A stretch of 64,000 nucleotides of DNA. Origin: an uncultured Roseicyclus sp. (GTDB lineage: Bacteria; Pseudomonadota; Alphaproteobacteria; Rhodobacterales; Rhodobacteraceae). Below the pieces are notes generated by a model, which made no database searches, had not been told where the DNA came from, and saw nothing but the letters and a program-made list of their open reading frames with translations. Positions 28,246 through 40,807 of this stretch are shown piece by piece. The DNA lies in NCBI GenBank assembly GCA_947491935.1, contig CANLLF010000002.1, positions 186,001-250,000 on the forward strand, in the 5' to 3' direction. The position numbers and the translations under genes were made by a program. Every line of letters begins with the position of its first letter. The first letter of the stretch is position 1.

Positions 28246-28989
28246 ATGAAACTTGAAGGTAGAACCGCCATCGTGACCGGAGGGGGGCGTGACATTGGCC
28301 GCGCCGTTGCCGTCAAGCTTGCCTCGGAGGGCGCGCAGGTCGCAGTAAATTACTACTCCAGTTCGACGGGGGCGGAGGAGACGGTTGCCGTGATCGAGGC
28401 TGCCGGCGGCAAGGCGTTTGCCATGCAGGGCGACCTGAACAAGAAGGCGGATGTCGATGCGCTGGTCTTGCTCACGGTTGAGACCTTTGGTGGCGTCGAC
28501 ATTCTGGTGAACAACGCCGGTGGCCTCATCGCCCGCAAAACGATTTCCGAGATGCCGCCGGAGCATTGGGAGGCGGTCATGAGCCTGAACCTCACCAGTA
28601 CTTTCCTGATGACGCAGGCATGCCTGGCCAAGATGACGTCCGGCGCCATCGTCAATCTCGCAAGCCAGGCCGGTCGTGACGGCGGCGGGCCAGGCGCCGT
28701 TGCCTACGCCACTGCAAAAGGCGCCGTCATGACGATGACGCGCGGCCTGGCGAAGGAGGTCGGCCCGAGAATCCGCGTCAACGCGCTGTGCCCCGGCATG
28801 ATCGACACGGATTTTCACAATGTGCACACGCCCGATGCCGGCCGCCGTGGGTTTGAAGCAAACGCGCCATTGAAACGACAGGGCCACGTGGAGGATGCCG
28901 CAAACCTGGTGCTCTTTCTGGCCAGCGACGACAGTGCGTTCATTACGGGGGCCAACATCGACATCAATGGCGGCATGCTGTTTTCATAG
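28246..28989 (+). CDS. Short-chain dehydrogenase/reductase, possible fructuronate reductase
   Basis: The 247-residue classical SDR has the cofactor loop TGGGRDIGRAVA, NNAGG, Ser in VNLASQAG, catalytic YATAKG and the C-terminal ITGANIDINGGM. Specificity is not readable, but its place between a TRAP importer and uxuA makes an oxidoreductase step of uronate breakdown likely, for example the fructuronate-to-mannonate step normally done by UxuB, which is not found here. That is inference from context. An AAGGAAGGA site precedes ATG 28246. Confidence 0.87.
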   Translation: MKLEGRTAIVTGGGRDIGRAVAVKLASEGAQVAVNYYSSSTGAEETVAVIEAAGGKAFAMQGDLNKKADVDALVLLTVETFGGVDILVNNAGGLIARKTISEMPPEHWEAVMSLNLTSTFLMTQACLAKMTSGAIVNLASQAGRDGGGPGAVAYATAKGAVMTMTRGLAKEVGPRIRVNALCPGMIDTDFHNVHTPDAGRRGFEANAPLKRQGHVEDAANLVLFLASDDSAFITGANIDINGGMLFS

Positions 28990-29006
28990 AACGAAGGAGT
29001 TCGTCT

Positions 29007-29318
29007 ATGTCCGATTTCCCCATCGTCTCGACTGCGCAACATGTCACGCGGCAAGTTCTGTCAGACCATCCGGACCTTATGGTTGTCGCGTTCAGGTTTG
29101 ATGCGCCCGGCGCCTTAGGGGCCTTGCACGATCACCCGCATGTGCAATCGACCTATGTTGAAAGCGGGCGGTTTCGGTTCACGTTGGGCGACCACGAACA
29201 GGAGGTCGGTCCGGGAGACAGTTTCGTCGTTCCGTCCGGTCAGACCCACGGCTGCGTCTGCTTGGAGCCTGGAACACTGGTGGATTGCTTCACGCCGCGC
29301 CGCGCCGATTTCCGCTGA
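29007..29318 (+). CDS. Single-domain cupin protein
   Basis: The 103-residue one-domain cupin has motif 1 GALHDHPHVQSTYVESGRFRF (His, His, Glu metal ligands) and motif 2 PGDSFVVPSGQTHGCVCLEPG. Such proteins next to sugar-acid genes often act as isomerases or lyases of uronates (compare KdgF, a cupin that opens unsaturated uronates), so a ring-opening role is plausible but unproven. It is 17 bases downstream of the SDR stop with GAAGGAG before the ATG. Confidence 0.85.
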   Translation: MSDFPIVSTAQHVTRQVLSDHPDLMVVAFRFDAPGALGALHDHPHVQSTYVESGRFRFTLGDHEQEVGPGDSFVVPSGQTHGCVCLEPGTLVDCFTPRRADFR

Positions 29319-29804
29319 GTGCGATGCGATTTCTGGCGATCAGCGGCTGCATTGCGGAATCCGCGCCATCTGATCGAGCCGGCGCATTCACGATTGGCTT
29401 CGAAAGGGATAGGTTCAACACGACCTGGTATCCGGCCCAAATCGGATCGTCCTTCGATGAGGAGGCCGGGTGGCTCGGCGATGCCAGCCCGGACGGGACA
29501 CTCGATCGCGATCCACAAATGGGGTCGGCCGCGTTGTTGTTAAGAACGGAGAGCATAGCGTTGGGTATCAGGACAGGGTCGTCCGCCGCCGAAGGTCGCG
29601 ACGCCGCGGCCGCAGGCGACGGTTCCAATGTGGGCGTTCTGGCGGGAATTGCGGAGGAACCGTATTTGACAACAGGAATTGCGTGCGGCTGCCGTGTGGC
29701 ACGCCATGTCGTCCAACGACAAGGGCCCTTAGTCTCCGTTGCGCGGGATTTGGTGCAATGAGACTCTCACCTATGTGTCAGGCAACCCAAGCGGGCGGGC
29801 GAAT
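29319..29804. other. 486-base gap between cupin and uxuA, no convincing gene
   Basis: Open frames exist on both strands (for example 29285-29761 plus and 29290-29628 minus), but none resembles a known protein, has a good ribosome site, or shows strong codon bias. The stretch breaks an otherwise tight operon, so it may hold a decayed gene or an inserted fragment. No terminator hairpin is visible, so read-through from cupin to uxuA is possible. Confidence 0.45.
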
Positions 29805-31001
29805 ATGAAACAAACCTGGCGATGGTTCGGTCCCACCGATCCTGTTTCCATTCCTGATGTCCGACAGACCGGCGCTTCGGGCATCGTTTCGGCCCTCCAC
29901 CATGTGCCCAATGGGCAGGTCTGGACGCACGCGGAGATCAGGAAACGCCAACGGGAAATCGAAATGCCCGAAGGTGATCCGTCTGGTCTGACGTGGGATG
30001 TTGTCGAAAGCCTTCCGGTCTCGGAGGCGATCAAGTCGCAAAAGGGCCCTGTAAAGGAACATATTGAGGCGTACAGGCAAAGCCTTTCGAACCTGGCGGA
30101 ATGCGGCGTGCGCACGGTCTGCTACAACTTCATGCCGGTATTGGACTGGACACGAACGGATTTGCACCACCCGTTGCCCCATGGCGGCCATGCCATGCGG
30201 TTTGATCTTGTGGATTTCATCGCGTTTGACTGCTTTATCCTCGAAAGGCCCGGTGCGGTGCACGACTATTCGGCCGAGATCGTTGAGACAGCCCAGGCGC
30301 AGTTTTCGGATCTTGGCGGCAAGGGCTGTCGAAGGCTTATGGATAACATCGTTGCGGGCTTGCCGGGCGCCAACAATGCCTGGAGCCTTGATGATGTAAG
30401 GGAGTGCCTTGAGGCCTACCGTGGCACAACCCACGAAAGGCTTCGATCCAATCTCATCGATTTCCTGTCGGACGTTGTTCCAACAGCCGAACGGCTCGGC
30501 ATCCGACTTTGCTGCCATCCGGACGATCCGCCCTTTCCTCTGCTGGGTTTACCTCGGGTTCTGTCGACCGAACAGGACTACGCAGCCGTCCTGGGGGCCG
30601 TGGACAGCCCCTCAAACGGCGCCACGTTTTGCACCGGGTCACTGGGTGTTGCAGAAAAGTTCGACCCTGTGGCGTTCATCGCCCGGCTTGGCCATCGCAT
30701 TCATTTTGTTCATTTGCGCAATACGGCGCGCTCCGGTGCCTGCGATGGTCAGCGTCACAGCTTCACGGAGGCCGAACACCTAGGCGGCGACACGGATATG
30801 GTCGTGACCATTCGAGCGCTTCTGGCGGAAGAAGGTCGGCGCCGTGAAACCGGTCGGGCCGATTGCGAGATTCCCATGCGACCCGACCACGGCCACGCAT
30901 TGCTGAGTGATCTCGAGCGTCCCGGGCAACCGGGCTATCCACTCATTGGACGGATGCGCGGGCTTGCTGAGCTTCGTGGCGTCATGCTTGGCTGCTCCTA
31001 G
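29805..31001 (+). CDS. uxuA: Mannonate dehydratase
   Basis: UxuA converts D-mannonate to 2-keto-3-deoxy-D-gluconate in glucuronate breakdown. The 398-residue protein matches Escherichia UxuA in length and motifs: MKQTWRWFGPTDPVSIPDVRQTGASGIVSALHH at the start, YNFMPVLDWTRTDL, RLCCHPDDPPFPLLGLPRVLST in the middle with metal-binding residues, and FVHLRNT late. ATG 29805 aligns with the family start. No uxaC, kdgK or kdgA is present in the window, so the pathway is completed elsewhere. Confidence 0.95.
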   Translation: MKQTWRWFGPTDPVSIPDVRQTGASGIVSALHHVPNGQVWTHAEIRKRQREIEMPEGDPSGLTWDVVESLPVSEAIKSQKGPVKEHIEAYRQSLSNLAECGVRTVCYNFMPVLDWTRTDLHHPLPHGGHAMRFDLVDFIAFDCFILERPGAVHDYSAEIVETAQAQFSDLGGKGCRRLMDNIVAGLPGANNAWSLDDVRECLEAYRGTTHERLRSNLIDFLSDVVPTAERLGIRLCCHPDDPPFPLLGLPRVLSTEQDYAAVLGAVDSPSNGATFCTGSLGVAEKFDPVAFIARLGHRIHFVHLRNTARSGACDGQRHSFTEAEHLGGDTDMVVTIRALLAEEGRRRETGRADCEIPMRPDHGHALLSDLERPGQPGYPLIGRMRGLAELRGVMLGCS

Positions 31002-31462: not shown

Positions 31463-32575
31463 TCAACGCAATATTGTCTCTGCGATGGGTTGCGCGATGG
31501 GGATGAGGTGATTGTCAAAAGACCTTGGGTGGCTCCGCAGGAGTAGGGCTTGCGCAATGGCGCTCCAGCATCCAACGTCGCCGTCACCATTGGTAAAATA
31601 GAATCCAGATCCGAATTGACTGCTTAAACCACAGACATCAGGGGCAGCAATTGAGTGCACGAAAGCCCCGCTGGTCGTATTGAAAACCTGAACCACTCCA
31701 CCTCTTGGCGAGCTGATGCCGACCAGTTGGGTGTCGTTTGAAAAGGCGATACTGCCTGCATATCCCCTGAGCTCCAAATGATCTGCGTTGTCTGCTGCCA
31801 AGGGGGTGATGGGACCGCCGCTCTGATGCAGCCCAAGCAGCGCAGGGGCATCAAGTGGATCACCTTGCCACTGCATGGCCACGGCCACCGTCCCATCGGG
31901 TGCGACATCAAGATGGCGGATCGAGTTCATGCGGTAATCGGCGCCCAACTCCAACTGCTCCAACACTGCCCCGTCCGGAGACACGTAGCTGAGATTGGGG
32001 CGCATCGTCGGAAGGTTCAGCTTGGCCCTTCCGCTATCGGGGTGGGTTTCGATCCCGCCATTGGCAACGACGAGAGTGTCCGTGCCGGGGAGTCGAAGGA
32101 TGTCGTGGGGACCGATGCCACCCGATGCGATCTCACCAACACGGGTGTAGCCACGTTCGGCGTCCCAAATCCCGATAACACCGCGGGCGGCGTCAAAGTC
32201 ATTCTCGGTCGTGTAAAGCCTCGATCCGTCGGCGGAGAAGGTGCCGTGCCCGTAGAAGTGGCGCCCTTCCGGTGCAGTGATGCGGGCAATCTCCGCTCCC
32301 GTGCTGCAATCGATCGCCAGGGCGAACGTTCCGGGTCTGCGGGCGAAGGCGATGACCTGGGGGCGGATCGGATGGGCCGCGGCGGCGTGGCCCCGGGCGG
32401 GAAGGTCGACCTCGAATGTGATCTGCCCGGCCGTGCCGAGGCCACACAATGTGTAGACCCCATCGGGGCGGAGGGCGGCGGTGACGTAGGCCGGGTTTCC
32501 CGCATCGGCCCAGGTGGCTTTGGGCGCGAGGCCGGTGGCAAGAAGGCCAGCCAGGACGGCACGACGGGCAACCAT
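31463..32575 (-). CDS. DUF1513 beta-propeller-like periplasmic protein
   Basis: The 370-residue protein opens with an Arg-Arg leader (MVARRAVLAGLLATGLAPKATWA), consistent with export. Repeated beta units follow, typical of DUF1513: GHGTFSADGSRLYTTENDF, GIWDAERGYTRVGEIASGGIGPHDILRLPGTDTLVVANGGIETHPDSGR, LNLPTMRPNLSYVSPDGAVL. This is the last gene of the imelysin unit and shares one base with the imelysin B stop (TGATG). DUF1513 genes are known neighbours of imelysin and DUF1111 genes in proteobacteria, so a role in periplasmic iron handling is inferred. Confidence 0.85.
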   Translation of the reverse strand: MVARRAVLAGLLATGLAPKATWADAGNPAYVTAALRPDGVYTLCGLGTAGQITFEVDLPARGHAAAAHPIRPQVIAFARRPGTFALAIDCSTGAEIARITAPEGRHFYGHGTFSADGSRLYTTENDFDAARGVIGIWDAERGYTRVGEIASGGIGPHDILRLPGTDTLVVANGGIETHPDSGRAKLNLPTMRPNLSYVSPDGAVLEQLELGADYRMNSIRHLDVAPDGTVAVAMQWQGDPLDAPALLGLHQSGGPITPLAADNADHLELRGYAGSIAFSNDTQLVGISSPRGGVVQVFNTTSGAFVHSIAAPDVCGLSSQFGSGFYFTNGDGDVGCWSAIAQALLLRSHPRSFDNHLIPIAQPIAETILR

Positions 32576-33567
32576 CAGTCACCATCCAGTGAGTTGAAGC
32601 CAGCCGAGACTCCAAGGCTTGGGCCCATCTGAGTCAGGATAAGCTGGCGCAACTCGTTGATCCGCTGCTGGATCACTTCGACACGGAACCGGCCTTGGGG
32701 GTCTGCCACGCTGGCCAAGGTCGGATCTTCCAGCCGCTCCAACCCCGAGATCACCGCGTCAAGGCCCGCGCGGACGTCAGCGTCAGGTGCTCCGACCATC
32801 AGAGCGTCTGCCAGTTCTGCCAAACCCTGCATAGAGACGATCAGGTTCTGGACAGACCGCTCAGACCTGCGGGCCTCCGCTCGGTTGGGACGGGGGCGGT
32901 CGAAGGTGCCAAGGGGGCGGCCAAGGCGGACATCCGCGTTGAACTCCAACCCGGTGGTCAGGGCGTTGAACAGGGCCCGCATCGCCTCTGCTTGCGATTG
33001 ATAGCGGTCGTTGCTGCCCGCCATGCGCATCAGATCGGCGTGGGTTTGGGTCCAATCCCGCTCCATTTCGGCGGTCGTCGTGGCGATGTCAGCAGCCATG
33101 ACCCGAACAAGATCACAACGGTAAATGGCGTCCCCTCTGGAGGAGATTTCGGGGTCGAACAGCAGGAATTCCATGGCGTAATACCCCCGCGCCGCGACGG
33201 AGACGCTGGCATAGTCCGAGGCGATCACAGGATCCCTGTCGTCGATCAATTGCGTCAACGCCCTGGGCGTCGCCCCTCGGCTGTCGGGCCAGAATGCCAA
33301 AGCAAAAGCCCGGTTGTCCGCCTCGAATGGTCCAAACCGCAGGTGGCTGACGTGGACCCAGGCATCGAAAGCTTCGTGGTAAGCCGCGACAAGCGCCGGG
33401 GACGTGCAATCCTCCGCCGCCAGTGCGAGGGCTTGGCTGGCTTCTGCAAGCTGCGTCACCCCTGGCAGGACATGGCTGTTGAGGGCTGCATCGATAGCGA
33501 TTTGGTGGTTCTGAGCGGTGGCTGCGGACGGCAGGGCGGCGATCAGGGCGAAGGTTGCAAATCGCAT
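32575..33567 (-). CDS. Imelysin-family periplasmic protein B, atypical motif
   Basis: The 330-residue protein has a signal peptide (MRFATFALIAALPSAATA) and one imelysin (M75) domain. The usual GxHxxE signature reads GYYAME here (residues 128-133): Tyr130 replaces the His while the Glu is kept. Compare H172/E175 in the larger imelysin at 35186. Its metal site may therefore be altered, or it may act as a partner subunit. It lies 1 base after the DUF1111 stop and shares a base with the DUF1513 start, so the operon is tightly packed. Confidence 0.85.
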   Translation of the reverse strand: MRFATFALIAALPSAATAQNHQIAIDAALNSHVLPGVTQLAEASQALALAAEDCTSPALVAAYHEAFDAWVHVSHLRFGPFEADNRAFALAFWPDSRGATPRALTQLIDDRDPVIASDYASVSVAARGYYAMEFLLFDPEISSRGDAIYRCDLVRVMAADIATTTAEMERDWTQTHADLMRMAGSNDRYQSQAEAMRALFNALTTGLEFNADVRLGRPLGTFDRPRPNRAEARRSERSVQNLIVSMQGLAELADALMVGAPDADVRAGLDAVISGLERLEDPTLASVADPQGRFRVEVIQQRINELRQLILTQMGPSLGVSAGFNSLDGD

Positions 33568-33568
33568 G

Positions 33569-35128
33569 TCAGAGGCTTTCGAGGAAGGTGATCAGGGCGG
33601 CGCGATCAGCGGGCGGCATGGCAATCACGGCCTCGCGGGAGGCCTCGGCCTCTCCACCGTGCCAGAGAATGGCTTCCAATAGGTTGCGCGCGCGGCCATC
33701 GTGCAGGAAGTAGGTATGGCCGCTCACGGTTTCCGTCATGCCGATCCCCCAAAGCGGAGCGGTGCGCCATTCGCGACCCGTGGCGCGGCCCTCGGGGCGA
33801 TTGTCGGCCAAGCCTTCGCCCATGTCGTGCAAGAGAAGGTCGGTGTAGGGCCAGATCAACTGGAAGCTGGTGGCCGGATCGCCTTCCTGCCTGTGGGTCA
33901 CGAAAGCGGGGGTGTGGCAGGCGGCGCATTGGACGGTGTGGAAGATTTCACGCCCCCGCAGGACGGTCGGGTCATCGACATCGCGGCGAGCGGGTACGCC
34001 GAGGTGCTGGCTGTAGAACGTCACCAGGTCGAGGCCGATATCATCGATCTCAAGCCCCTCCTGTTCGGGGTCGCCGCCATGCGCAGCACCCACACAATCA
34101 ATCTGCGCGGCGGTGCATTCACCCCAGCCGTTTGGATGCAGCGGATTGGAGATGCCGATATCACCGGCAAAGGCCCCGGCACTTTGTTCACGGATCGTGG
34201 GGTTGCCTGCCTTGTGGCCGAAGCGTCCCAACATCGGTTGGTCGTATTCGAGCGACCAGACGATCTGCGGCCGCCCTGAAATCCCGTCCCCGTCCAGGTC
34301 ATCCGGATCGGCATTGGCGAGGATGTCTTCAACGGGGATCGCTTCCAACAGGCCAAGGCCAATCATCTGGTTGGCGATACGGGGGCTGAGCATGGCGTCG
34401 GGGTGGAGGGGGCCGTAGCCGAGGGTCCCAGCAGTGTAGGTGGGGCGGCGGAGCGTTGCCATTTCGCCGCCGGACAGGGCAACCTCGACCTCTTCATATT
34501 CGATTTCGAGCGTGTATTCCGAGGCAAAGCCGGGAAGGCTGAAATCCTGCAACTGGGTGCCGTAATTCGGATCGCCCTGGGTGGCGATGTAGTCCGCGAT
34601 CTCGGACAAGGGGCCTGCGGTGATGGTCGGGGCCGGGATCGAAATCCGCAGGAACATCGACACGGAACCATCGTCTGGCCCTTCCGGCGGATGGCCCCGC
34701 CCGTCCTTGAGGTGGCATCGCTGGCAGGACCGTGCATTGTAGAGCGGGCCGAGGCCGTCACTCGCCAGGGTCGAGGCCGGGGCTGTCACCCAGAGCCTGC
34801 GGAACAGCCCGTTGCCCACGCGGAAGTTCAACTCATCCTCGAAGCTGAGGTTGTCCATGGGTTGAGAGAAGGCGTCCGCATTTTGACGGGGTCTGACCGT
34901 TCCCGCCCCGCCGGCATTTTCCTCAAACGGCAAGGCGACCGTAAAATCCACAGGCGGAGCTGTCACCGCCGCGATCCGGGCTCGTTCTTCATCGGTCCGT
35001 GGGATGACATCCAGATGCACGTCGGCCAGCTCGTCCCACGCGGACACCGGAAGGGTGGTATCGCTATGGGCGGTCAGGGCAACGCCGAGGGCAATGGAGG
35101 CGGCGAGAAGGGGGGCGGCTCGGTTCAT
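33569..35128 (-). CDS. Di-heme oxidoreductase (DUF1111, thiol oxidoreductase-like)
   Basis: The 519-residue exported protein has a signal peptide (MNRAAPLLAASIALGVALTA) and two c-type heme motifs, CQRCH (135-139) and CAACH (401-405), as in the MauG/cytochrome c peroxidase-related DUF1111 family. A calcium-loop-like DPDDLDGDGISG lies near residues 274-285. It probably passes electrons in the periplasm, perhaps oxidising or reducing iron for its imelysin neighbours (inference). The start at 35128 gives the signal peptide; an ATG at 35179 would add 17 charged residues before it and start 6 bases after the upstream stop. Confidence 0.9.
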   Translation of the reverse strand: MNRAAPLLAASIALGVALTAHSDTTLPVSAWDELADVHLDVIPRTDEERARIAAVTAPPVDFTVALPFEENAGGAGTVRPRQNADAFSQPMDNLSFEDELNFRVGNGLFRRLWVTAPASTLASDGLGPLYNARSCQRCHLKDGRGHPPEGPDDGSVSMFLRISIPAPTITAGPLSEIADYIATQGDPNYGTQLQDFSLPGFASEYTLEIEYEEVEVALSGGEMATLRRPTYTAGTLGYGPLHPDAMLSPRIANQMIGLGLLEAIPVEDILANADPDDLDGDGISGRPQIVWSLEYDQPMLGRFGHKAGNPTIREQSAGAFAGDIGISNPLHPNGWGECTAAQIDCVGAAHGGDPEQEGLEIDDIGLDLVTFYSQHLGVPARRDVDDPTVLRGREIFHTVQCAACHTPAFVTHRQEGDPATSFQLIWPYTDLLLHDMGEGLADNRPEGRATGREWRTAPLWGIGMTETVSGHTYFLHDGRARNLLEAILWHGGEAEASREAVIAMPPADRAALITFLESL

Positions 35129-35185
35129 CTTGGCAATCTGGTGGGGTGAAACGACAAGTTTCGCCGCTTCACCCTGCATTGAGGG

Positions 35186-36448
35186 TTACTCGAAAACGGC
35201 GGACGGATTATCGAGGCTGTCGGAGCCCTCGAACGCAATCTCGCCAAGATCGAGCGCTGCCACGATGCGTTCAATGGTCTGGGTCTGCGCAATGAAGCCG
35301 TTCACACCCCCCATGATTAGGGCTTCACCGGCCTCATTGCCGCGTTCCAGCATCTGGTCGTAGGCAAAGCCCGCTTCCGCGGCGAGGACGATCTGGCCAA
35401 GCTCGCGCATCGTCTCGGACAGGCGGCTGCGCATTTCCATGTCGAGCGCCGGATCGATGGCGGCAACCAGATCGGAGAGCGACGGCCCGCTGACCACAGT
35501 GCCGTCGGCCCGGACGTATTCGCCCAAGTAGACATTCTGCACGCCGAGGCCATCAAGGTAGTGGTCGTTGTGGGTGTTGTCGGCGAAACAGGAATGCTCC
35601 TCCTCCGGGTCATTGAGCATGACGCCCAGGCGCATCCGCTCACCCGCGACTTCCCCATAGGAGAGCGACCCCATGCCGGTCAGCATCGCGCTGATCCCGG
35701 CGTCCGGATCGGCCACCACGGCAGCGCGCGCATCGCCGCCTTCGACCCATTGGGCCGCCATCCATTCCAGATCGCTGACCAGAAGCTCGGTCGCTGCGAC
35801 AAGGTATTCCGCGCGGCGGTCGCAGTTGCCGCCGGTACAATCCTCGCCCTGTGCAAAGTCCGTCCAGGGACGGTTGCCCGCACCGGGGGCGTGGCCGTTC
35901 AGGTCCTGACCCCAGAGCAGGAACTCGATAGCGTGGTAGCCCGTGGCCACGTTGGCCTCGATCCCGTCGGCTTCGTGCAGCGTTTCTTCCAGCAGCGCTG
36001 GTGTAATCATGCTGGCGTCGATCTCTGTCCCTGACAGCGTGAAGGAGACGTTGGCGATGACGTTGAGCGCGGCGAATTCGTTTTCGTCGCTCGGGCCACC
36101 ATAGCCACCGTCCACATAGTCGATCAGGCCTTCGTCCAGCGGCCATGCGTTCACCCGGCCTTCCCAGTCATCGACGATGGCATTGCCGAAGCGATACACT
36201 TCCGTTTGCTGGTAGGGCACCCGTGCGGCCAACCACGCGGCGCGCGCAGCGGTCAGTGCCTCAGCCGAGGGGGCCGCGACCAGTTCCGCAACGGCGTCTT
36301 CCAGCGCTTCGGCCGTGATCAGGCTGTCCTCATAGCCCGCTGCCGCGATATCGGCGTAGGTGGCCAAGACGTCGGCGGCGTCTTGTGCCGTCGCCGGTGC
36401 GGCCAGCAATGTGGCCAAGGCCGTTGTCGTGAGGATGGTTCTTTTCAT
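35186..36448 (-). CDS. Imelysin-family iron-uptake protein A (IrpA-like)
   Basis: The 420-residue protein has a signal peptide (MKRTILTTTALATLLAAPATA), a complete imelysin domain with GYHAIEFLLWGQD (His172, Glu175), and the typical GPGNRPWTDF-like segment (HAPGAGNRPWTDFA). Imelysin proteins such as IrpA are iron-regulated and needed for growth in low iron; they bind iron or iron complexes in the periplasm or at the outer membrane. It heads the unit imelysin A, DUF1111, imelysin B, DUF1513. AAAGGGA precedes the ATG at 36448; the open frame further upstream is not supported. Confidence 0.92.
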   Translation of the reverse strand: MKRTILTTTALATLLAAPATAQDAADVLATYADIAAAGYEDSLITAEALEDAVAELVAAPSAEALTAARAAWLAARVPYQQTEVYRFGNAIVDDWEGRVNAWPLDEGLIDYVDGGYGGPSDENEFAALNVIANVSFTLSGTEIDASMITPALLEETLHEADGIEANVATGYHAIEFLLWGQDLNGHAPGAGNRPWTDFAQGEDCTGGNCDRRAEYLVAATELLVSDLEWMAAQWVEGGDARAAVVADPDAGISAMLTGMGSLSYGEVAGERMRLGVMLNDPEEEHSCFADNTHNDHYLDGLGVQNVYLGEYVRADGTVVSGPSLSDLVAAIDPALDMEMRSRLSETMRELGQIVLAAEAGFAYDQMLERGNEAGEALIMGGVNGFIAQTQTIERIVAALDLGEIAFEGSDSLDNPSAVFE

Positions 36449-36769
36449 TGCGCAGTGTCCCTTTTGGTGCGGTCGGTTGGATCGACTGGCTGACGCATAG
36501 GCACTGGCTGGGTCGAAGTGAGTGTGTCGGTCAGGAATTCGAAGGACGGCGATGCATCCGTGTCGGAGCACATGCATTCCAACAGAAGCGCGCGCCGTCT
36601 GTTGCAGCATTGGTCCGAGTCCCGGTCCGCCATCCTCGAATTCCCTACAAGCGAGAGGGCTGACTCGCCCTATGCGGGCAATCCTGACTTGTTTAGTCGG
36701 ATAATGCAAAGCGAGATTGAGGGACGCGGGCAACATGTCGCGATATGACCGAATTTGGGCGCTGGCCCG
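36449..36769. other. 321-base gap upstream of imelysin A
   Basis: This is the leader and promoter region of the imelysin unit, downstream of the cupredoxin gene on the same strand. No gene is convincing here; a plus-strand frame (36518-36748) lacks homology. It contains the small inverted repeat GACT-TGTTT-AGTC (36686-36698) followed by GGATAATG, a candidate regulator site. No terminator is obvious after the cupredoxin gene. Confidence 0.5.
36686..36704. promoter_or_regulatory. Candidate iron-regulator site upstream of imelysin A
   Basis: A GACT/AGTC inverted repeat with a 5-base spacer (36686-36698) runs into GGATAA. A related string, TTTTGTCGGAATA (40373-40385), lies upstream of the ABC binding-protein gene. 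Both share TTT[AT]GTCGGA. Which regulator would bind (Fur, Irr, RirA or IscR) cannot be told from sequence alone. Confidence 0.35.
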
Positions 36770-37264
36770 CTAACCGGCTTCTAGTTCCTCAAAGAGCGCC
36801 CTGAAGGCCGTTCTCGCCCGCCCACGTTGCCTGACCGCGCGGGCGGCATCGAGGTTTGACAGCTCATTGCCGACGACGATCAAGCCCGCCATCCCAACCT
36901 CGTAGTGCGGTGTGCAGACATAGCCGTAAATCCCCGGAACACTCATCTCCAGCGTCAATTCTTCATCGACACCGCCGTTCCAAGGCTCGGCCCCCTCGGG
37001 GATCATCCCGCGCCGGGACGCGGCGTTGTGGCCTGCGTCGGTGGGAAGGAATGTCACCACATCGCCGAGGGCCACGTGCAGGATGGGTGGCTCGAACACG
37101 TTGATGTTCTGGTCATCCGAGCAAGCTGCGTTCAGCATCATGATTGTGCGATGTCCGGGCGGCATGTCGGGCATGGTGTTGGCAAGGCCCAGGCCCGTGA
37201 CGCCCGCAAAAGAACCAGCGGAGATGATGAAAAGGCGGCGGCTCGGATTAGTAGGCATGGACAA
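36770..37264 (-). CDS. Pseudoazurin-like cupredoxin
   Basis: The 164-residue protein has an Arg-Arg leader (SRRLFIISAGSFAGVTGLG) and a blue-copper domain. Ligands are His79 (AGHNAAS) and the CTPHYEVGM loop giving Cys117, His120 and Met125, the pseudoazurin pattern. It should carry single electrons in the periplasm. The TTG at 37264 is preferred over the ATG at 37258 because GGAGG lies 7 bases before it. It overlaps the ABC ATPase gene by 17 bases, so it belongs to that transport operon, and the imelysin unit follows. Confidence 0.85.
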   Translation of the reverse strand: MSMPTNPSRRLFIISAGSFAGVTGLGLANTMPDMPPGHRTIMMLNAACSDDQNINVFEPPILHVALGDVVTFLPTDAGHNAASRRGMIPEGAEPWNGGVDEELTLEMSVPGIYGYVCTPHYEVGMAGLIVVGNELSNLDAARAVRQRGRARTAFRALFEELEAG

Positions 37265-38015
37265 GCAAATCCCTCCGGGGGCCTTCGGTCACTTCGATTT
37301 CCACCCCATACGTACGGGCAATCGCGTCACTGCGAAGGACAGTGTCGGGCGGCCCTTCGGCCAGGATGCGCCCTTCACCCAGGAGGATCAGGTGATCGGC
37401 GAACCGGGCCGCGAGGTTGAGGTCATGGAGTGCGACTAGCCCCGTGACCTGCCGGTCCGCGATGGCATCCCGAATGCGGCCTAGAACGTCCAATTGGTGC
37501 CGCAGATCGAGGGCGGATGTCGGTTCATCAAACAGGTAAACGTCAGAGCGGCGGACGAGGGCCTGGACGACCGAGATCATCTGGGATTGGCCGCCAGACA
37601 ACTCACTCACGTAAGCTTCCGACAGGTGCCCGATGCCGCCCCGGTGCAGCGCCTCCGCCACCGCGTCGATATCCGCGCTGCTGACCTTCCACCCACGAAG
37701 CTGCTTTTGGGCCATCATCACCACGTCGAACACTGTGAGCGCCGCGTTTGCCGTGAAGAATTGCGGCATGAAGCACACCTGTTGCAGACGCTTTCGGGTG
37801 GATAATTTGGCAAGGTCCTGATCGCCAAGGTGAACCTGCCCGCCGTTTGGCTTCAAGAGCCCGGCAATCAAGCGGAACAGCGTGGACTTGCCGGACGCAT
37901 TGGGACCGATCAAGGCGGTCAATTTGCCTGTGGGCAGTGGCGCGAAGCCCACGCCTTTCAGGATGGGCCGGGACCCATAGGCGAAATCCAGACCCGTGAC
38001 ATGTAGACCGCTCAT
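37248..38015 (-). CDS. Iron-siderophore ABC transporter ATP-binding protein
   Basis: The 255-residue FepC/FecE-type ATPase has Walker A GPNASGKST, signature SELSGGQSQMISVVQAL, Walker B VYLFDEPTSALD and the His switch ALHDLN. The start at ATG 38015 overlaps the permease stop by 4 bases (38012-38015). The C-terminus overlaps the cupredoxin start. It powers uptake of a ferric complex through the FecCD-type permease. Confidence 0.93.
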   Translation of the reverse strand: MSGLHVTGLDFAYGSRPILKGVGFAPLPTGKLTALIGPNASGKSTLFRLIAGLLKPNGGQVHLGDQDLAKLSTRKRLQQVCFMPQFFTANAALTVFDVVMMAQKQLRGWKVSSADIDAVAEALHRGGIGHLSEAYVSELSGGQSQMISVVQALVRRSDVYLFDEPTSALDLRHQLDVLGRIRDAIADRQVTGLVALHDLNLAARFADHLILLGEGRILAEGPPDTVLRSDAIARTYGVEIEVTEGPRRDLLVHAY

Positions 38016-39085
38016 TGCCAGTGTCTTTTGCGTTGGGTGAGGATGAGAGAGATGAAGAACGGGATGCCGATCAGCGACGTGATCATACCGATTGGATAGA
38101 CGACGCCCGGCGTGATGGACTTCGACGCGATAGAGGTGCCGGACAGGATCAGTGCCCCGCATAGCGCTGAGAGCGGCAGGAAGCCGCGTTGATCTTCGCC
38201 CACGATCATCCGGGCGATATGCGGTCCCACAAGGCCCACGAAGGCAATCGCGCCGACGAAGGACACCGCGACCGCCGAGAGCAGCGAGACCCCGGCAAGA
38301 ACAGCAAGGCGCAGCCCGCTGACATTGACGCCCAGGGCTGCAGCCTTGTCCTCCCCCATCCTGAGCGCCGTCAGGGCCCAAGATTTGTAGACAAAGTAAG
38401 GTAGCACAACTGCCAAGAGGGCGACGCAGATGCCGACCTTCTCCCACGTGGCCCGGGCAAGTGAGCCCATCTGCCAGAAGATAAGCTGAGCCAGTTGAAT
38501 CTCTGACGCACCGTATTGCAGGAACATCAACAGCGCGTTGAAGGTGAACAGCATGGCGATGCCAACAAGGATCATCGCCTCGGGCGACACCCCGCGCAGA
38601 CGGGTGAACGCGAACAGGCCGAGCGAGGTCAGCATCGCCACGACGAACGCATTCACCGTCACGAACAGACCACCCACACCGGGGATCAGCGACCAGCCCA
38701 GAACGATGGCAAGGGCGGCCCCGAAACTGGCGGCGGACGAAAGCCCAAGCGTGAACGGGTCCGCCAGCGGGTTGTTGAGGATCGTCTGCATCTCGGCCCC
38801 AGCCACGCCAAGCATGGCGCCAACGGCAACAGCCATCAGGGCGACTGGCAGGCGAAGGTCCCAGATCACGACTGCTTCGTTTGTGGTGGCGACGGTGGGT
38901 TGCAGGATCACTTGGATCACGCGCCCGATGCTCGCGTCAAACGGACCGGAGACGATATCCAGCAGAACGGTAAGGCAGAGGACCGCGATGGCTGAGCCGA
39001 CGATCAGGATGCGTTTTGTGATGGACTTTCGGTAGCCGGTCGCGATGTCGGACGCACTTGGTCCGAGCAAAGGTGTATCTGGCAT
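38012..39085 (-). CDS. FecCD-type iron ABC transporter permease
   Basis: The 357-residue membrane protein has about ten helices and FecCD motifs: RLPVALMAVAVGAMLGVAGAEMQTILNNPLADPFTLGLSSAASFGAALAIV, LLSAVAVSFVGAIAFVGLVGPHIARMIVGEDQR. Only one permease gene is present, so it is expected to work as a homodimer, as in BtuC-like systems. ATG 39085 lies 69 bases after the binding-protein stop. Confidence 0.94.
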   Translation of the reverse strand: MPDTPLLGPSASDIATGYRKSITKRILIVGSAIAVLCLTVLLDIVSGPFDASIGRVIQVILQPTVATTNEAVVIWDLRLPVALMAVAVGAMLGVAGAEMQTILNNPLADPFTLGLSSAASFGAALAIVLGWSLIPGVGGLFVTVNAFVVAMLTSLGLFAFTRLRGVSPEAMILVGIAMLFTFNALLMFLQYGASEIQLAQLIFWQMGSLARATWEKVGICVALLAVVLPYFVYKSWALTALRMGEDKAAALGVNVSGLRLAVLAGVSLLSAVAVSFVGAIAFVGLVGPHIARMIVGEDQRGFLPLSALCGALILSGTSIASKSITPGVVYPIGMITSLIGIPFFISLILTQRKRHWQ

Positions 39086-39154
39086 GGGTTTGATCCTGAT
39101 GGAGAGATTGGCGGCGACCCAAGACGCGCTCGGCCCGCCGCTATGGTCCGCTCG

Positions 39155-40309
39155 TCAGTTGGACAAGCTGACCCAGAACTGGCCTTCATGGTCATACGGC
39201 AGGAACCGATCATGAAGGCGGGCCATCGTCTCTTCCGGATCAAGATCCGGGAACTCTTCAGGGTGCAGCCATTGCGCGATCTGCTGAATGGCAACGAAGT
39301 GGAACGGAGAGTTGTAGAACTGGTGGTAGATGGAATGCATCCGGCCTTCCTCTACGGCCCGCAGTGTCTGGAAACCGGGACGCGCGGCCAGGGCCTGCAG
39401 GCGCTCCTGATTGACGGCCTCAGACCCCTCATACCCCAGAAGGGTTGCGGTGACTTCGGGACGCGCCTCCGACCAATTGGCACCGGTGCTCAGCATCACG
39501 TCCGGATCGGCAGCGATGATACCTTCGAGGGTGATCTCCACACTGTAGGCGTTCGCCAAAGTGGAGCCATAGTTCACGCCCCCGGCAAGCTCGATGAACC
39601 GGCCATAATTGTAGCTGCCGAACGTGTTGCAGCAGAAATCCGGGTTCCAACCTGCGGCGTTCTCCATCACGACAAGGGGCCGTTCTTCCGCCGGAATGCC
39701 ATCGATCACGTTGGTCACGCGGCGCATCTCGGAGATGTAGAAGTCGATGAATTCGGCCGCGTTGGCCTCTTCGCCCAACAAACGCCCGAGGATCAGCAGG
39801 GACGGGACGGTGTTCTCGGTCGCGTTTCGGCGAAAGTCGATGAAGACAACGGGCACGCCTGCTTCGTCTAGACGCTCAATAAGGCCGGTTTCCTCGGCGT
39901 TGAACAATCCGCCAAGGTCCAGCAGGACCAAGTCGGCCTCGTTTTGCAACACCGTCTCGATGCTGAAATCCCCGGAATAGGGATTGCCAAAGTTGATCAG
40001 CCGATCCGTGTCCTCGGGAAACGCGGCCTCAAACCGGCGGAAGGCGTCGGGGTCGTAAAGGATAAGGTCGTCCTTCCACCCGATGATGTTGTCGAATGGG
40101 TTGCCGTCCTCGATGGCGGCGATGGAATACATCATCCGACCCTCGCCCAGAACGATGCGGGTGGGATGATCGGGCAACGTCACTTCGCGGCCTGCAATAT
40201 CGGTGAGGGTGAAGGCTTCTGCTTGAGCATCAGGGGCGGACGCGACCACAAGGGTTGCGCTGGCTGCTATAGCACCAAGGAAGCCGCTGAAACGTGTCTG
40301 GAACGACAT
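39155..40309 (-). CDS. ABC transporter iron-complex binding protein
   Basis: The 384-residue class-III binding protein has a signal peptide ending AQA and the opening FTLTDIAGREVTLPDHPTRIVLGEGRM, typical of FepB/BtuF relatives. A Cys pair occurs in NPDFCCNTFGSYNYGRFIELAGGVNYG. It captures an iron complex in the periplasm and hands it to the FecCD permease encoded next. It is first in the locus, with about 500 bases free upstream where its promoter must lie. Confidence 0.9.
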   Translation of the reverse strand: MSFQTRFSGFLGAIAASATLVVASAPDAQAEAFTLTDIAGREVTLPDHPTRIVLGEGRMMYSIAAIEDGNPFDNIIGWKDDLILYDPDAFRRFEAAFPEDTDRLINFGNPYSGDFSIETVLQNEADLVLLDLGGLFNAEETGLIERLDEAGVPVVFIDFRRNATENTVPSLLILGRLLGEEANAAEFIDFYISEMRRVTNVIDGIPAEERPLVVMENAAGWNPDFCCNTFGSYNYGRFIELAGGVNYGSTLANAYSVEITLEGIIAADPDVMLSTGANWSEARPEVTATLLGYEGSEAVNQERLQALAARPGFQTLRAVEEGRMHSIYHQFYNSPFHFVAIQQIAQWLHPEEFPDLDPEETMARLHDRFLPYDHEGQFWVSLSN

Positions 40310-40807
40310 GAGCGGTCTCCGGTTTATGGTGTGCCTGAGTGCTAGTGCTGGTCTCCCCTAATGTCGAGTCTTTTTGTCGGAATAGATGTTCGCATCCGAA
40401 AGGCACCATGGATAGCATGACCGTTTTCGAGGAATAGGATTGAGCGCCAACCAATCAATGCGAGTTGCAAACAGCTCATCTCCAGTCGTGCCCTATCAGA
40501 GAGAGACGTCTCCCGGACCTAGCTGCTCCCCAGAAGTCTGCTCTCGGGCCGGTGACAAGCCTCGGTCATCTTTGTGCGATTTAGCACGACGGTGTCTTCG
40601 CCAATATCGTCCGATAAAAGACGCATCATCTTTCGAGCGCGGTGGGGTTCTTGGCAATGAAGTAGACGACCTATGAATCCGTCATGCCATGTGACGCCTG
40701 TGGTGATCCTTCTCACGTAGGCCGCGTCGACAGTTGGCGGAGAAGCGAATTCAATTCCCGCTCTTTGGCGCGGTATTGGACAACAAAAAGCGCTGGGCAG
40801 CCGGTTG
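40310..40807. other. 498-base gap between iron ABC locus and mrpG
   Basis: The stretch holds the promoter region of the iron ABC genes (minus strand) and the 3' end of the Mrp operon. Open frames on both strands (for example 40440-40676 plus, 40519-40920 minus) show no recognisable protein. TTTTGTCGGAATA at 40373-40385, about 65 bases before the binding-protein ATG, resembles the candidate site before imelysin A. Near mrpG, CGCTG/CAGCG arms (40791-40795, 40809-40813) followed by a T run on the minus strand could be a weak terminator. Confidence 0.45.

Follow-up and report, generated by a model that had tools for sequence, protein, structure and literature searches.

A 64-kb stretch of DNA from an uncultured Roseicyclus sp. 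(CANLLF010000002.1, positions 186,001-250,000; the whole stretch is called the window here) carries, at window positions 31463-40309, eight genes that place a blue copper protein between an ABC importer and a pair of imelysins. Do they form one periplasmic iron machine and, if they do not, what is the copper protein doing at the importer? The first-pass annotation had described eight genes in this order on one strand and had read them as EfeUOB-like parts, dispersed over separate proteins and joined to an importer. All eight reading frames are indeed open on the minus strand, and profile searches agreed with the families assigned earlier (Table 1). The genes fall into two units: a YiuA-type binding protein, FecCD permease, ATPase and pseudoazurin (40309-36770), and imelysin A, a di-haem DUF1111 protein, imelysin B and a DUF1513 protein (36448-31463).

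Table 1. Genes and predicted regulatory sites of the locus (window coordinates).
Feature	Position	Strand	Profile match or remark
YiuA-type periplasmic iron-chelate binding protein, 384 aa	39155..40309	(-)	PF01497 5e-16
FecCD-type permease, 357 aa	38012..39085	(-)	PF01032 1.8e-79
ABC ATPase, 255 aa	37248..38015	(-)	PF00005 7.2e-27
Pseudoazurin, twin-arginine signal, 162 aa from ATG 37258	36770..37258	(-)	TIGR02375
Imelysin A, 420 aa, ICMP/LruB type, GYHAIE = GxHxxE	35186..36448	(-)	PF09375 1.5e-86
Di-haem oxidoreductase DUF1111/DHOR	33569..35179 (alternative start 35128 possible)	(-)	PF06537 1.9e-97
Imelysin B, 330 aa, PA4372/IPPA type, GYYAME = GxxxxE	32575..33567	(-)	PF09375 4e-49
DUF1513 protein, 370 aa	31463..32575	(-)	PF07433 2.8e-116
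Predicted IscR site, importer-cupredoxin promoter	40360..40384	(-)	about 50-75 bases before start codon
Predicted IscR site, imelysin operon	36680..36704	(-)	about 232-256 bases before imelysin A

Several neighbouring genes touch or overlap. The ATPase start at 38015 gives a 4-base overlap with the FecCD permease. The 17-base overlap reported earlier between cupredoxin and ATPase is retained if translation begins at TTG 37264 and shrinks to 11 bases from the first ATG. A single base separates DUF1111 from imelysin B, while imelysin B and DUF1513 have one base in common. A gap of 321 bases, containing an iron box of its own, separates the cupredoxin from imelysin A, the start of which is corrected from 36449 to 36448. 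Imelysin A matched the LruB family NF047655 (6e-37) under its cut-off. The DUF1111/DHOR translation contains two CxxCH motifs, CQRCH and CAACH, and matched no solved structure by sequence. No Rfam family matched in the region, and scans for sigma-70 promoters and terminators gave no result above chance. The opposite strand downstream of DUF1513 (28246-31001) carries an ordinary sugar-acid locus, with genes for an SDR enzyme, a cupin and mannonate dehydratase (UxuA); an mnh antiporter operon lies on the far side of the locus from these genes.

Both sequence and predicted fold place the binding protein in the YiuA group (cluster A-2). The closest solved structure by sequence was Yersinia YiuA (6b2x, E 9e-79, phmmer). 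The predicted fold (mean pLDDT 86.7) returned YiuA for all 15 best PDB matches in Foldseek (E 1e-36, TM 0.85/0.94), including Y. ruckeri YiuA solved with iron and DHB-Arg-Ser. A basic triad of R64, R165 and R223 has been proposed for YiuA (PMC5683015). The first two arginines align with R58 and R160, invariant in 18 sequences, and the position of R223 is occupied by N217. H329, Y332 and the adjacent cysteines C226-C227 are kept.

The tie between cupredoxin and ABC importer, which had been singled out as unusual, holds well beyond the Roseicyclus genome. Thirty loci were retrieved with the binding protein as query, and all eight proteins were mapped onto them. The ATPase was present in 28; binding protein, FecCD permease, ATPase and pseudoazurin formed a single block in 24 of these, and four importer units were without pseudoazurin. 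A 17-base overlap of pseudoazurin and ATPase, with an ATG start, was seen in 20 of the 24 four-gene loci. Hosts of the block include Roseobacter-group genera, Roseibium/Labrenzia and one Geminicoccaceae bin, among others, and it occurs on plasmids as well. On Phaeobacter gallaeciensis plasmid pGal_A255 its neighbours are a PepSY_TM protein at one end and, at the opposite end, an AraC regulator and a TonB receptor; a Tateyamaria plasmid also bears it. Apart from a table on Actinobacillus pleuropneumoniae, no description of a pseudoazurin-importer link was found in the open-licence literature.

Other features of these neighbourhoods were recorded. Nine loci encode a SAM-dependent methyltransferase (~226 aa, conserved TCCH motif) directly after the pseudoazurin (L026:13527-14204, L028, L029, L035, L040, L045, L046, L048 and L054), and a related importer on a Shinella plasmid has a methyltransferase of a different kind ahead of it (L119:5050-5877). 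FecCD in L046:11215-12287 and the pseudoazurin in L043:13045 have apparent frame breaks, or sequencing errors. More distant importer relatives (L100-L108, 27-50% identity) gave no pseudoazurin match in the fetched stretches. A second candidate FecCD-pseudoazurin pair, in L109, was rejected: its FecCD gene belongs to a cobamide-uptake operon (TonB receptor, binding protein, FecCD, ATPase, CbiZ) that ends well before the pseudoazurin.

The importer-linked pseudoazurins are a lineage of their own. In a tree comparing them with 13 others, solved denitrification proteins included, they formed one clade (99/95, 100% of bootstrap trees) separate from the pseudoazurins of denitrification. They bear twin-arginine signals, and the type-1 copper ligands H77, C115, H118 and M123 are invariant in the alignment. 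The predicted fold of the Roseicyclus protein, a model of moderate confidence, matched pseudoazurins in Foldseek. Residues conserved specifically in the clade are A44, C46, N53, A80, K/R82, R83, D98 and E120, and several of these positions lie next to the copper ligands in the sequence.

Both units also carry a predicted iron-regulatory site. IscR binds the hemP promoter of R. sphaeroides, and the hemP-irpA-bfd-bfr and RSP_1545-1543 genes are counted in the IscR / Iron-Rhodo-box group (PMC4618611). A matrix built from the two palindromic promoter boxes that precede hemP in 12 genomes of the genus was used to scan the window. The box 1 matrix scored the site before the imelysin operon highest (24.2 bits) and that before the importer second (18.9), with the next at 8.6; the combined matrix gave 23.5 and 16.9 bits, respectively. 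Across 30 simulated 64-kb sequences of the same dinucleotide content, the best combined-matrix score averaged 12.8 and peaked at 20.4, with a total of four sites at 16.5 or above. The imelysin-operon box is thus beyond this null. For the importer box, score, position and conservation together suggest a regulatory site: a box at p 0.024 or less was found in 27 of 31 importer-unit promoters, nearly all starting about 70-80 bases before the start codon, and plasmid copies of the unit carry it as well. Imelysin A promoters of the genus had a box in six cases out of six. With palindromes like those of hemP at both promoters, the two units are predicted members of the same regulon, which upholds the iron role proposed earlier for both halves of the locus. 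IscR-type regulators were found in all 13 genomes of the genus under the family cut-off, fitting the atypical single-cysteine form described for Rhodobacteraceae (PMC4618611). Two further kinds of site were noted: the importer promoters of two Rhodobacteraceae bins (L050 and L051) contain a perfect palindrome, TTGACAAGTTTAGTCAA, an apparent variant of the iron box, and Iron-Rhodo-box-like sites at L113:6490 and L114:6812 precede Tat-type pseudoazurins without an importer neighbour.

On balance we favour a reading of the locus as two adjoining operons with IscR/Iron-Rhodo-boxes, one encoding a YiuABC-like ferric-chelate importer with a pseudoazurin redox partner and the other an ordinary imelysin operon like PA4370-PA4373. 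The substrates of the importer would be ferric chelates, probably fragments of catecholate siderophores or xenosiderophores of a similar kind. As the fourth importer gene, the pseudoazurin may be translationally coupled to the ATPase, and its product, probably Tat-exported, would most likely be a periplasmic redox partner dedicated to the handling of iron by this system. The potential of pseudoazurin is near +0.27 V, so the protein should be better suited to accepting an electron from Fe(II) than to reducing a ferric siderophore. By oxidising Fe(II), it would maintain iron in a ferric, chelated form for the binding protein. Protein families, gene order, the conserved unit, the iron boxes, the single pseudoazurin clade and the separateness of the two units elsewhere come directly from the computations; from these we infer the importer ligand, the redox partnership and the direction of electron flow. 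Points that weigh against this reading are N217 at the third position of the YiuA triad, the four importer units without pseudoazurin, the iron boxes before some pseudoazurins that have no importer beside them, and the falling transcripts of a similarly ordered Actinobacillus operon.

The copper protein could instead spare iron: the cell would make it under iron limitation as an electron carrier in place of periplasmic c-type cytochromes, and its gene would share the importer operon for no other reason than that low iron calls for both. In some denitrifiers, pseudoazurin and cytochrome c can stand in for each other as carriers. Among stand-alone Tat pseudoazurins of the sister clade, two of six are preceded by an iron box (L019, 19.0 bits, p 0.002; L020, 14.6 bits, p 0.010), as are none of four other pseudoazurins. 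This distribution favours a link of these pseudoazurins to iron limitation in general and keeps iron sparing alive. Against iron sparing, the pseudoazurin gene overlaps closely with a single kind of importer ATPase gene in different genera and on plasmids, and the proteins form a single clade with conserved residues unlike those of other pseudoazurins. We regard iron sparing as a serious but rather unlikely account of the importer-linked proteins.

Concerted action of the cupredoxin, imelysins and di-haem protein with the ABC importer, as the first-pass annotation had it, now appears improbable. The units are adjacent on one strand, both promoters have a predicted box for the same regulator, and the units occur together in two genomes; in every other genome seen, however, they are apart. 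Among the loci seen, imelysin genes adjoin the importer unit only in the Roseicyclus genome and one close relative, and no other importer locus from the binding-protein search has imelysin genes nearby. Imelysin A was found in 7 and the pseudoazurin in 2 of 13 genomes of the genus, and the YiuA-type importer is lacking from five of these genomes that do have the imelysin unit. In all seven sampled genera with both a binding-protein relative and imelysin A, the two were on different contigs. The two genomes with both units have a wider neighbourhood in common, mnh genes included, so that the junction of importer and imelysin units was probably one event. A single machine of the EfeUOB kind is further opposed by the lack of an FTR1 permease: PF03239 (FTR1/EfeU) had no match in the whole genome, with control genomes positive, and membership in EfeUOB was rejected on this ground.

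The imelysin half is of a kind already known and widespread. Its gene set, that of PA4370-PA4373, is present in seven genomes of the genus. Of 120 genera in the family, 55 have imelysin A and 57 have DUF1513, the two genes lying within ~7 kb of each other in about 50 of the 55 (counted by eye from listed coordinates). Two local arrangements were also seen. In L095:7602-8419 there are ~800 extra bases between imelysin A and DUF1111. In L094:113-6262, from the same genus, a haemin-type uptake operon (TonB receptor, binding protein, permease, ATPase) stands beside the imelysin operon, the YiuA-type importer not being there.

Pseudoazurin is an electron carrier of denitrification, and its position beside an importer could be fortuitous. 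The Roseicyclus protein scores 119.6 bits on the TIGR02375 pseudoazurin equivalog (cut-off 109.85), the block on the Phaeobacter plasmid has nirK and further nitrogen-oxide genes at a distance of about 3-12 kb, and NirS occurs in several genomes with the importer-pseudoazurin unit. Nevertheless, neither NirK nor NirS was found in the Roseicyclus genome. These textbook partners are thus missing, and a denitrification role in this genome was rejected. NirS is absent from four other genomes with the unit, and both the separateness of the clade and the iron box in the promoter speak against an electron donor of this kind, which we judge highly improbable. Siderophores can bind Cu(II), and a copper protein adjoining a chelate importer might capture copper before it can load onto either of them, but we give this very little credence, as the complete type-1 redox site is invariant where a mere copper sponge would not need one, and no copper-handling gene recurred in the unit among the loci examined.

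The favoured reading, a YiuABC-like importer with its own redox partner, has a broader and more tentative form. The unit may represent an iron-importer class of its own, with an ATPase-coupled blue copper protein that sets the periplasmic iron oxidation state for a YiuA-type binding protein; this class would be widespread in the marine Roseobacter group, carried on plasmids and matched by a counterpart in Pasteurellaceae. The importer-pseudoazurin tie recurs in many relatives, and the association of a conserved pseudoazurin clade with importers of iron chelates and with an iron box suggests that these proteins may have a second role, beyond denitrification. The function at the importer is what we infer; such a role would link copper to iron acquisition in bacteria abundant in iron-poor seawater.

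Both halves of the locus were compared with known systems. EfeUOB / EfeM and FtrABCD resemble it in that cupredoxin, imelysin or haem-peroxidase parts handle periplasmic iron, but they need the FTR1 permease that the Roseicyclus genome lacks. EfeO joins a cupredoxin and an M75 domain in one protein, whereas these are separate proteins here: both imelysins, the only M75 genes in the genome, match PF09375 only, with no cupredoxin domain. EfeM is an M75-only form, so the missing fusion alone is not decisive. No DyP match, as for DyP-type EfeB, was found at the locus, where the haem protein is instead DHOR. The earlier comparison of these parts with EfeUOB is weak. The imelysin half corresponds to iron-regulated PA4370-PA4373 of P. 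aeruginosa, in which GxHxxE and GxxxxE imelysins (PA4370 and PA4372) have DUF1111 between them (PMC3143127). Both systems have imelysins of these two types flanking DUF1111. Here, in contrast, the imelysin operon has an importer-cupredoxin operon upstream of it, and IscR, not Fur, is its predicted regulator.

The importer half has its closest known relative in Yersinia YiuABC (6b2x, 9if3), with which it has in common the fold and sequence of the binding protein, a FecCD permease, an ATPase and iron regulation (predicted here). It differs in the missing third arginine of the triad, the added pseudoazurin, and IscR as predicted regulator where YiuABC has Fur. A possible counterpart that includes the copper protein is known from A. 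pleuropneumoniae, where APPSER1_09785-09810 encode a binding protein, permease, ATPase, pseudoazurin, binding protein and glutathione synthetase, annotated by the authors as putative iron transport (PMC12507848). Under deferoxamine, the first five proteins of this operon rose by 1.5 to 3.0 log2 while the transcripts went down (PMC12507848). Unlike the Roseicyclus unit, the operon continues with a second binding protein and glutathione synthetase. The likeness, by gene order alone, is in the succession of binding protein, permease, ATPase and pseudoazurin, with proteins raised at iron starvation.
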